A stretch of DNA of 64,000 nt from Nereocystis luetkeana (Eukaryota > Sar > Phaeophyceae > Laminariales > Laminariaceae): positions 2,143,403 through 2,207,402 of the forward strand of contig JARUPZ010000024.1 in NCBI GenBank assembly GCA_031213475.1. Direction: 5' to 3'. Positions 28,500-44,900 of this stretch are shown in pieces. The position numbers and the translations under genes are program-made. Numbering within the stretch: position 1 is the first letter of the stretch; each line of letters begins with the position of its first letter. A model generated the notes under the pieces. That model did no database searches. It worked only from the letters and a program-made list of their open reading frames with translations, and was not told the origin of the DNA.

Positions 28500-29600
28500 G
28501 GTGGTGATGCTTCCGCTGCTGAGCACACGTACAGCACCCTATCTTCCATTCCTTCCATCCACCATCCATCTATCCATCCTTCGCAGCACCACTCTGCAAA
28601 ATCACCACGATGATGTTGAGAGCGATGTTGTCCCTGCTGATAACAACATTTTTCGTCCGTCCGTCCGCCCTTCCTTCCTTCTTTCCTTCCTTGCCAGGGC
28701 CCGCTATACCCCAACACGCCATCCCGTCCTTCCTTCCATGCGGTGATGCTCGCGACGCTGAGCACAACACACGCGCCATCCCGTCCTCCCTTCCTTCCTT
28801 GCCGGCAGCGTCCGCAGCAGAACCAGATGGCGAGTATGGTGATTGATGCTGCCCGTGTCGAGCTTCGACAACGTACCCCTCTCTGCCCTGCAATTTCCCC
28901 CCCCAGCGACAACCCCCTCACAGAACAATGTCATGACGATGGTGGTGCTCTTGTCCTTGCTGAGTATGAACAGCACAACATCCTTCCTTCCCGCACCCTC
29001 CATCTATCCCCTCCGGCACAGCTCTCAGATGGCACCGGCAATGCTACCTCGCTGAGAACAACAGCATACTTTCACCCTTCTGGCACAGCTAGCCCCACTC
29101 CCCTAGTATAGAACAACGCAATGGCGGTGAAAGTGGTATGGTGTTATCCTTGCTCAGCACGACAACATACTTCCATCCATTCTCCCCCCTCCCCGTCAGC
29201 CAGCACCGCTCTTAGAAGAACACGACGACGACGGCTCATGCTATATCTTGCTGAGCACAACAGCATGCTCCCACCCTTCCTGCACCGCGCACCGCCCGTA
29301 CAGCTCTCCCGTTAGAAAGGACGGAACGGCGACAACGTTATCCTTGTTGAGCACAACGGCACCCTTTCACCCACCCTTCCCAGGCCAGGACCACCCTAAG
29401 AAAGAAGTATCACGGTGACGGCGATGATGAGGTCGTCCTAGCTGAGCACAACAACCTACCTCCATCCGTCCATCCTTCCTTCCATCCTTCCTCACCCCCC
29501 CCCCGTCCCTCCCTAGGCAGCACCGCTCCTGTCTCAAGAGCTACGCTCTAAAAATGCACCACGGGGATGGTGAAGGTGTTGTCCTGACTCCAGCACAGCA
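28500..29600 (-). repeat. Array of degenerate copies of PP2C exon 9
   Basis: The last PP2C exon (acceptor TTCTCAG, then an SKDNITVVIVFF-type end) is followed downstream by about ten diverged copies roughly 60-200 bases apart. On the + strand they show as GCTGAGCACAAC-like cores near 28521, 28637, 28758, 28957, 29049, 29152, 29252, 29347, 29440 and 29588. Copies still reading SKDN-, SQDN- or NKDN-like are at 29340, 29570, 29150 and 28945. Several keep TTCTTCTAA or a similar stop. They would fall in the 3' UTR or beyond. Confidence 0.75.
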
Positions 29601-29910
29601 GACAGATCACCATCTAGATCACCATCAATCTATGCACAGATAGATCATCTACAGACCCTAACCTGCTGCTACGAGACGCTGTGCAGGACCTGTGCAGTAC
29701 AGATCCAACCAAGGAAACGTGTGCTATCAGTAGACCATGCAGAGTGGTACGGCTTCCACCCGGCAAGAGAAGGAGCTGGATCATGCAGGTTATCTTTGCC
29801 CTGGCAGAAGATCTAGGCCATTCAGTGGGGATCTATCTGATCTATCTGCCCCGTGCGTGCACCCTTCCGCCCGTCCTCGCCTCCTTCCTCGCCAGCACCC
29901 CTCTCTGCTC

Positions 29911-41900: not shown

Positions 41901-44900
41901 GCCGCCATCATTTTCCGTTTTGTGTTCCCTTAAGGCCTGTTTCGGAGAAAATCGACCAGGAAATTCGCCCTAGGGGGGGGGGGGGAGGGGGCGTGTTATC
42001 TTGATTATCGTATATTGTAGGTTTGTCACGGGGCGCTCTTAAACCGGGGTACCTTGATATGTACGGGCGTGCTGTCTTGATTATAGTATACGGTAGGCTT
42101 GTCACGGAGCTCTCCTAAACCGGGGTACCTTGGTATCCCCTCCACTGTGTGTCCGCACCTCGTGATGCGCTCTTCGATTGAGCTGTGGTCGTCCGCCCTT
42201 AGCTCCTCCGAGAGAACGTCTGCTAATCGCGACGAAACGAAATCCACCGTGCCTCGACCTGTGAAGAGGTTGCGTCGTGTAGGGGTATGGGTAAAGGGGT
42301 GCAGGGGTGCAGCAAGTAAACATAAAAAAAGAGTATGACATGGTTCGTAGTTCATGTTTCGATTGGTAAAGGTGTGCTCGTAGTTCATAACACGCGAGAG
42401 GTAGCCAGTACGAGTACCCAGCACGCGAGGCATCCTCTCTTCCCCACGGGAAAACAAAAAACATAAACTATACCCGGTACATCTTTAAATCCAAAAATCA
42501 ATAAAAACGTTGAAAAACAAAATCTGATTGTTCGCAGAAGTCGTCCAAAAAAAAAAAAGTTTGTTCTTCATTTCGTATGAACTTAGGGCACCTCTCGGAA
42601 ACGTATAACTCGGAAAACACTTACCAGGTATCTACGTTGTGGGGCGTGACATAGGCTGAACCACGCCCTAAAATAGCGTTGGCACCGGAGGAGGACTAGC
42701 GTAGCGCGGTAGCATATAATTGCATGCTTATCGACGAACGTTATAATGCGTTAACGTTAAGGTTCTTCTCCATCTCGGCGTTTCTGGTACGGCAACATGG
42801 TGCCACGTCGTCATCGGTACGCGTACTGCAGTAACACCACAAGACAATAGGATCTGTCCAGACTCCTACGTTATCAACCTAACATGAACAGATCGCAATC
42901 CGCCGATTCGCTAACTCGTTACCTAGTATAATGTTCGACATAGGAGGCTCTAGGCGTAACATCCTAACATCGTGTTCTGGTTGAGGAGGGCACTGCTATT
43001 ATGGGGGGCCATAGTTAATAGGACCAAATATTGTTAGTAAAAATGGTTAAATATAGAGGTTTTTATGTATACCGTAGGTCCTATTAACTATGCCCCCCCC
43101 GTAATAATAGGCATGGCCCCCTTGCACCACGTTAACAGCGACGGTCGTGTTTTCCATAACACTACGTAACAGCATGTCATTCGAACGTCATTCGAACCCT
43201 CTTCAATCTTCGTCAGGGTCGGTGCTTGACGTAACTTACGTAAGTTACTTTTGGAGGCGGTCGCGATGATTTATTCAAAGTTATCATGTTTCTTTAAACC
43301 CTTTTATGACCGCAGTCTCGTTTGGGGGACGAGCTACTTAGAATTGGGGTGGTTTGTCCCCAAAACGGGACTGAAGTTCGAAGGGGGTTAATAGCACTCC
43401 GTTCTTAAAGACAAGGGTCGTTTGAATCAAATCAGGGACAAATATAATATTTGTATTTGGCTGTAAGCCGCGCTGGCTCCTCCATATGGAATTCACCCCC
43501 GCACACGCCCCCGTCCCCGCACAAAACAGTTACAATACAGTTACGAAAACGCCGCGGTACCTCCATGGCCGTCGTACACGAGGAAACAGGACACCTAGGA
43601 AACACGGAAAACATGCACGAAACACAAAAAAAACATTCAGACATACTCGTACAAACGAATAGTTTCGAATCAAATACAAAACTGCCCCGAACAAAAAATA
43701 TTACATAGCAGTTACAGGTTTAAAAACCGGGGCGGAATATGCCTCCATGGCCGTCAAACACGGCGAAAGCAAGCAAGCAAGCAAGCAAGCAAGCAAGCAA
43801 GCAAGCAAGCAAGCAAGCAAGCAAGCAAGCAAGCAAGCAAGCAAGCAAGCAAGCAAGCAAGCAAGCAAGCAAGCAAGCAAGCAAGCAAGCAAGCAAGCAA
43901 GCAAGCAAGCAAGCAAGCAAGCAAGCAAGCAAGCAAGCAAGCAAGCAAGCAAGCAAGCAAGCAAGCAAGCAAGCAAGCAAGCAAGCAAGCAAGCAAGCAA
44001 GCAAGCAAGCAAGCAAGCAAGCAAGCAAGCAAGCAAGCAAGCAAGCAAGCAAGCAAGCAAGCAAGCAAGCAAGCAAGCAAGCAAGCAAGCAAGCAAGCAA
44101 GCAAGCAAGCAAGCAAGCAAGCAAGCAAGCAAGCAAGCAAGCAAGCAAGCAAGCAAGCAAGCAAGCAAGCAAGCAAGCAAGCAAGCAAGCAAGCAAGCAA
44201 GCAAGCAAGCAAGCAAGCAAGCAAGCAAGCAAGCAAGCAAGCAAGCAAGCAAGCAAGCAAGCAAGCAAGCAAGCAAGCAAACACTCCCAAAAAATACCTC
44301 ACAAACAGTTCCGTACACACCACACACAAATCCGACGCAAGAAAACTCCGTCATAAAACCATTACAAAACAGTTACAAAACCGCGGTGGAATTACCTCCA
44401 TGGCCGTCGTACACGGCGAAGAAGGACGTGGCTGGGTTTCCGTCAAAGTGCGCGATTGTCTCATGCGCGTCCTCCATGGTATTCCGCCACGATGGGTTCT
44501 GTACAGGGAGGGAGGTGGGTGCCGAGGGGAGGGGGGGTTAAGGCCAATGCAGTCAAAAAACGGTGGCCGAGTAATCCCACGGTAGGGGTTGCGCTTTTTT
44601 GCCTTGTGAGGCAATATTTTCTGAGCAGTCGAGCTCCTCCAGTGAGCAACTGAAACTACCGGTTAATATGCTATTTCTACTTCTCTACTTGGTAGTAATG
44701 TCAGGACTACGGTAGCTCATGGAAATGCTGGTCACGTTGAGCGAAAAATCTTCTTCGAGACAATGTTTCGGGTTTGACATTGAGATTCTAATGTGAAGAG
44801 CCCAGAAAATAGTAAGCCAACGCCAATTTAAGGTGGCATTGCTTTTGCCAGGGTACAGTACGGGCCCGCCGCCAACAACAAAAAGCTACTCTGAGCAAGG

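Follow-up and report, generated by a model that had tools for sequence, protein, structure and literature searches.

Decayed copies of exon edges in a PP2C gene of Nereocystis luetkeana: a probable dense patch of ordinary local duplication

The PP2C gene and its exons

The window analysed here, a stretch of 64,000 nucleotides from the brown alga Nereocystis luetkeana (GenBank assembly GCA_031213475.1, 465 Mb in 1987 contigs; contig C24, positions 2143403-2207402), carries on its minus strand a PP2C gene in which several exons are accompanied by degenerate copies of their own exon-intron edges. Pfam PP2C matches, together with reading frames and splice signals, placed six exons of this gene, which correspond to exons 2, 4, 5, 6, 7 and 9 in the numbering of an initial annotation of the window; the same three sources gave no location in the window for exons 1, 3 and 8. 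Splice sites were picked by eye, from the sequence alone, and are marked by a slash:

44396..44503, minus strand: exon 2 (MEDAHETI...FFAVYDGHGG), donor GGAG/GTAATT; Pfam PF00481 positions 8-49, E 0.0078, 16.3 bits; alignment to a solved Ser/Thr phosphatase
40892..40973, minus strand: exon 4 (AYTITDVESKAASVLTSGATAVTCLLK), CAG/AGCG ... CAAG/GTGGGT; reading frame and splice signals
38623..38669, minus strand: exon 5 (AEHGQVTLYTANIGD); found by eye via the TANIGD motif
36911..37117, minus strand: exon 6 (SRAVLARGG...FISETR), donor GACGAG/GTAGGAG; Pfam PF00481 positions 122-197, E 2.7e-17
33747..33847, minus strand: exon 7 (LGSDCPFLIVACDGVWD...); Pfam PF00481 positions 201-230, E 1.9e-5
29914..29946, minus strand: last exon, i.e. 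exon 9 (KDNITVVIVFF stop), acceptor CTCAG/TAAGG; splice site by eye

The Pfam score of exon 2 taken alone lies below the curated cut-off of 20.3 bits. Exon 4 gave no match of its own in the Pfam scan; it resembles the SG-TAV segment of PP2C weakly (score 42) and joins exon 5 in sense.

Decayed copies beside four exons

Segments of about 120 bases centred on each junction were aligned to the 2.5 kb flank on each side, and each alignment was set against 100 Markov shuffles. The following copies were retrieved:

43676..43767, minus strand: exon 2 donor, decayed copy A, GT changed to GC (score 211, 73% identity, best shuffle 122)
43515..43592, minus strand: exon 2 donor, decayed copy B, GT retained (score 241, 79% identity, best shuffle 122)
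41066..41352, minus strand: two upstream copies of exon 4 with acceptor, at offsets of about 157 and 311 bp, CAG in both (best shuffle 94)
40558..40786, minus strand: two downstream copies of the end of exon 4 with donor, GT in one of the two (best shuffle 101)
36142..36864, minus strand: exon 6 donor array, five decayed copies, GT in two of the five (alignment; shuffle test on four)
28555..29639, minus strand: last exon including its acceptor, five decayed copies, all 3' of the stop codon (scores between 130 and 222; the shuffles reach at most 128 and 114)

Exons 2, 4, 6 and 9 are thus accompanied by degenerate copies, at 62-82% identity, either of one exon-intron edge or of the exon in full. 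The initial annotation had described such copies beside these same four exons, and the comparison with shuffled sequence bears it out, as the copies score 130-347 against a best of 94-128 among the 100 shuffles, depending on the junction, and all four exons beat every shuffle. The weakest copy listed, at 28898-28980 beside exon 9, barely passes (130 versus 128). Upstream of exon 4, the two copies hold the acceptor and most of the exon (41071-41191, 79%, score 347; 41224-41347, 73%, score 190), and the first of them retains an open frame across the exon; the two downstream copies span the donor (40691-40786, 79%, score 254; 40564-40653, 71%, score 213). Four of the exon 6 donor copies lie within 36142-36606 (69-78% identity, scores 179-299, best shuffle 126), and the fifth, at 36772-36864, adjoins the parent and scores 217 by alignment without a shuffle control. 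The copies of exon 9 run from acceptor to stop codon at 62-75% identity.

Local alignment revealed no junction-spanning copy for the exon 2 acceptor, the exon 6 acceptor or either end of exons 5 and 7. An intronic array enters exon 5 by about 7 bases at its donor, and the match there (score 106) falls below the best shuffle (119). Among the four exon arrays, Tandem Repeats Finder reported only part of that of exon 4 (40589-40842).

The region also contains microsatellites and runs of G or C, among them 514 bases of perfect (AAGC)128.5 (43767-44280) that directly abut exon 2 copy A. Such sequence could in principle lend itself to chance or low-complexity similarity, or the copies could be assembly duplicates; but the scores exceed all 100 shuffles at each junction, the density tests presented below were run with tandem repeats masked up to a period of 12, and identities of 62-82% are unlike those of assembly duplicates. 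We therefore regard an artefact of this kind as very improbable.

Splice signals and divergence of the copies

GT is retained in four of the nine donor copies and AG in all seven acceptor copies. Cryptic splice sites therefore exist beside the working ones, in agreement with the earlier suggestion that such signals are scattered through the gene. These signals, together with the open frame of the first upstream exon 4 copy, might be read as the mark of alternative exons or regulated decoy splice sites maintained by selection. However, GT has been lost from five of the nine donor copies; the donor copies of exons 2 and 6 lack an acceptor, since the aligned copies hold the exon end alone; the copies of exons 6 and 9 diverge about equally in their coding and non-coding parts; and read-through at the exon 6 donor immediately meets a TAG. 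A selected function of this type appears improbable, if a little less so than an artefact.

The divergence of the copies bears on their origin. Relative to the parent, exon 2 copies differ at 6 of 57 coding positions and at 21 of 102 intron positions; a coding part that differs less than the intron part is to be expected where free change is restricted to the copy side. Exon 6 (58 of 237 coding versus 58 of 263 non-coding positions) and exon 9 (42 of 165 versus 112 of 396) run counter to this simple prediction. Within the exon 6 array, the four pairs of neighbours are 85, 76, 80 and 70% identical, and the six other pairs 64-77%, a tendency towards greater likeness between neighbours such as stepwise tandem duplication would be expected to leave.

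The junction segments in the rest of the genome

Three of the five copied junctions, those of exons 2, 6 and 9, were searched against the whole assembly. At an E-value of 0.01, they gave three, two and one matches, respectively, all inside the PP2C gene; these counts are a lower bound, as very common words were skipped and the search omits the more decayed copies that local alignment finds. Since the three junctions match only their own gene, no dispersed element is seen. One copy region searched against a phage collection gave no match.

This result bears on a mobile, introner-like intronic element that would have carried or captured the junction. Introns are known to be gained by insertion of such elements, as a passage of PMC4974935 mentions, and an introner-like element is expected to recur in many introns and genes; but the three junction segments are unmatched elsewhere in the 465 Mb, within the limits of that search, and the copies resemble their own adjacent exon. 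We accordingly give this explanation very little credence, no more than we give an artefact.

Dispersed sequences of other kinds do occur in the window. A family of about 110 bp, present in both orientations in at least 10 window copies that are about 74-90% alike, looks like a short non-autonomous element:

4292-4403, 5524-5631, 9623-9748, 10443-10556, 12131-12241: copies of the family of about 110 bp
15581-15690, 17297-17411, 37683-37791, 38406-38516, 42996-43109: further copies of the same family

A second dispersed family is found at 27012-27132, 43291-43393, 49361-49457, 46977-47084, 4152-4253 and 11306-11373; one of its copies (27012-27132) resembles a foldback element, being 78% self-complementary. 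Minus-strand open frames at 39178-39739 resemble, by eye, the C-terminal part of a non-LTR retrotransposon protein. At 7673-7930, a 33/96-bp array (96-bp period, 96% matches) lies in an open frame and encodes TNVKPFST-type repeats.

Local duplication in the window and in the genome

The abundance of local duplicates was estimated after masking tandem repeats of period 12 or less, a position counting as covered when it lay 15 bp or more within a direct, local duplicate, and the genome was represented by 21 stretches of 10 kb (210 kb). By this measure, coverage amounts to 39.4% in the PP2C gene (1922 positions), 21.4% in the window as a whole (8487 positions) and 13.2% in the genome sample; with masked bases included, it is 36.3% for the gene and 19.8% for the window. 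Similarly, a direct local copy with a score of at least 130 was found for 22.2% of 508 window tiles of 120 bases and for 14.5% of 1625 sample tiles, against 1.0% (window) and 1.5% (sample) of the same tiles when the flanks were reversed. Inverted copies are scarcer than direct ones (11.2% of window tiles, 5.3% of sample tiles).

Decayed local duplications in direct orientation, about 100 bp long, are thus common in this genome. Median unit and offset of these generic pairs are 101 and 188 bp in the window and 100 and 221 bp in the sample, the quartiles of unit length being 78-132 bp for the 166 window pairs and 80-133 bp for the 283 sample pairs, lengths that are shaped by the use of 100-bp tiles. 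The copies of PP2C junctions have a unit size like that of the generic pairs, and lie at offsets of about 90 to 1300 bp.

Duplicates at and away from junctions

The initial annotation had proposed a process that repeatedly duplicates junction segments in place. Within the gene, 5 of 11 PP2C junctions are covered by a duplicate (3 of 9 before exon 4 was included), and shifting the 11 junctions as a block through 28-46 kb gave a mean of 3.85 (P=0.318). The shift tests, like the placement tests described further on, are small, as they draw on the six located exons only.

Two other genes of the window were considered as well. For SAT, whose exon 2 had been said to show the same junction copies, two exons were located (5124-5383 and 6386-6542), and none of their four junctions is spanned by a duplicate. 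The duplication that does occur nearby (6260-6311 versus 6326-6377) is intronic and ends 8 bases before the exon at 6386, so that this claim does not hold for the two located exons. A short RAD51/DMC1-like exon, placed by alignment near 55435-55542 with approximate ends, has no junction copy; a Pfam scan of the plus strand at the right end of the window gave no match.

An outside test used exons of other PP2C genes of the same genome. Out of 59 PP2C matches, 28 exon matches were used; 2 belong to the present gene, 26 lie outside the stretches compared, and 3 on contigs C303 and C1280 were excluded because their scores equal exactly those of two matches on contig C16, so that they look like duplicate contigs. 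The 28 exons give 56 approximate boundaries: a single one is covered at the profile end itself, and 9 are covered within -12 to +36 bp of it, against 8.7 expected from the non-exon sequence of each locus. On the exon side of the edge, duplicates cover 5% of the nearest 60 bp; on the outer side they cover 8% of the nearest 60 bp and 10-21% between 60 and 1500 bp out. Coverage is thus lowest at exon edges and flat through the introns. A pass on 22 exons gave the same picture: of 44 boundaries, none is covered at the profile end itself and 4 are covered within the wider range, where 5.3 would be expected. None of 453 interior positions is covered, exon interiors being depleted of duplicates. In these genes, edges are covered at about the rate of their surroundings or below it, and edge copies are therefore not confined to the present gene.

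Indeed, 3 of the 28 exon matches overlap a duplicate, and two of the three form a pair of mutual copies in one PP2C gene on contig C26 (G000:C26:2029656-2030118, locus L038), where a stop-free match and a stop-bearing match about 360 bases apart are alike over about 48 bases. A parallel search with the Cpn60 family gave no usable nuclear exons, its frame returning 70 matches with identical scores on small contigs (C53-C481 of the same assembly), which are probably unplaced plastid copies.

The proposed process is therefore upheld in part: repeated duplication in place does occur beside exons. A process tied to junctions is not supported, with 5 of 11 covered against a mean of 3.85 (P=0.32) and a dip at the edges of other PP2C exons.

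Interpretation

The copies themselves, the background density of duplicates, the exclusively local matches of the three junctions searched and the lack of clear enrichment at junctions were all observed. We conclude that the pattern is real and that it is best explained by a dense patch of ordinary local duplication lying over small exons. Put more generally, the copies would be ordinary short local tandem duplications, common genome-wide, that overlap small exons by chance placement, a reading to which we assign a probability of roughly 0.83. That the PP2C gene shows several of them would follow from its position in an unusually duplication-rich stretch.

As a mechanism, we propose that direct tandem duplications of about 100 bp arise undirected, tens to about 1500 bp from their parent and independently of gene structure, an independence with which the lack of clear junction enrichment in the shift, placement and other-gene tests agrees, but the loosest placement test (P=0.027) does not. 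They may originate by slippage, unequal exchange or repair-linked copying, and would then decay by point mutation, presumably neutrally. A duplication spanning an exon edge would survive only if one intact exon remained spliceable, so that spare copies would be left 3' of a donor or of the stop codon, or 5' of an acceptor, where they would lengthen the intron or the 3' flank. The copies that pass the shuffle test do sit where the outer exon part stays intact, i.e. 3' of donors and of the last exon and 5' of the exon 4 acceptor; this side bias may be due to selection on the working gene filtering an undirected duplication.

Several results weigh against such chance placement. Exon 4 carries copies on both of its sides. 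Base coverage reaches 39-55% in the four 4-kb bins of 28-44 kb against 1-33% across the 21 sampled stretches, which places the PP2C gene outside the sampled range. A block shift over the whole window gave a mean of 2.18 against the 5 junctions observed (P=0.094). Arrays overlap 4 of the 6 exons by at least 12 bases, against 2.44-2.46 expected from random placement of the 11 array clusters (P=0.15), and at an overlap of 5 bases they touch 5 of 6 exons against 2.51 expected (P=0.027), a result that favours the initial annotation and that arises because an array touches exon 5 by 7 bases. Finally, all comparison exons belong to a single gene family, have approximate boundaries and include 2 of 28 with stop codons.

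Some of these observations are what would be expected if duplication were targeted to junctions, R-loops or co-transcriptional structures at splice junctions prompting repeated copying of the edges: edge copies occur in four of the six located exons, on both sides of exon 4, and the loosest placement test is in its favour. However, enrichment within the gene is not clear in the block shift through 28-46 kb, and the placement tests at overlaps of 12 and 20 bases give P=0.15 and P=0.135, respectively, 4 exons being touched in the latter as well. Counted by cluster, 4 of 11 overlap an exon by at least 12 bases (3.07 expected, P=0.37), the other 7 of the 11 in 28-46 kb overlapping no located exon to that extent, and 5 do so at an overlap of 5 bases (3.19 expected, P=0.17). 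In addition, edge coverage dips in the 28 exons of other PP2C genes, and the SAT and RAD51/DMC1-like exons together show 0 of 6 junctions copied, the ends of the latter being approximate. Targeting of junctions thus seems unlikely, although it is the least improbable of the alternatives considered. Equally doubtful, in our view, is its broader form, in which transcribed junctions would be hotspots of re-duplication in some genes of the lineage and introns would grow from their own edges, the PP2C gene being an extreme case and most others having lost the trace.

Relation to known duplications

Minisatellites are like the PP2C arrays in consisting of repeated units of tens to about 160 bp, but the PP2C copies are divergent and irregularly spaced, and Tandem Repeats Finder calls only the part of the exon 4 array given above.

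The initial annotation knew of no named repeat class that fits these arrays. Short local duplications, however, are already in print: passages of PMC2671141 cite the 'doublets' of Thomas et al. 2004 and the short tandem duplications of Messer and Arndt 2007. The PP2C copies are like these in their short units (tens to a few hundred bases here), placed in tandem or close by, in matching only locally for the three of five junctions searched, and in the excess of direct over inverted copies. According to the same passages, surveyed doublets are identical or nearly so and shorter than 100 bp, whereas the PP2C copies often form multi-copy arrays and, being 62-82% identical to their parents, are not strict doublets; they could be aged ones. 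The repair-mediated duplications of Pace et al. 2009, as described in passages of PMC2671141 that concern primates, lie mostly within 5 kb, with a mean of 162 bp for the proximal class, and are thus alike in proximity and size, but that set omits copies that lie less than 50 bp apart. These passages also state that exons plus splice sites can be duplicated into adjacent introns.

For duplication across an exon boundary, passages of PMC4974935 (Ma et al. 2016) describe a tandem genomic duplication that crosses an intron-exon boundary in the potato RdRp gene, and cite the model of Rogers 1989 for intron gain by tandem duplication. The potato case resembles the present one in that a tandem duplication spans a splice boundary, but a new intron arose there, and the PP2C copies lie only inside existing introns and the 3' flank. 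Among the open-access titles listed, none concerned junction arrays as a class, and none was closer than this case. Precedents for local duplications that overlap exon edges are thus in print, and the claim that no known class matches is not retained, as far as these passages go.

Significance

A genuine preference for junctions would amount to a new way for introns to expand, but most of the tests do not favour it. For annotation, the present results call for caution, since in this genome a decayed copy may pass for a genuine exon, as in the PP2C pair on contig C26. If the duplications are generic, the exon edge would serve as a recognisable 'parent', and its spare copies would show, step by step, how introns grow by short local duplication.

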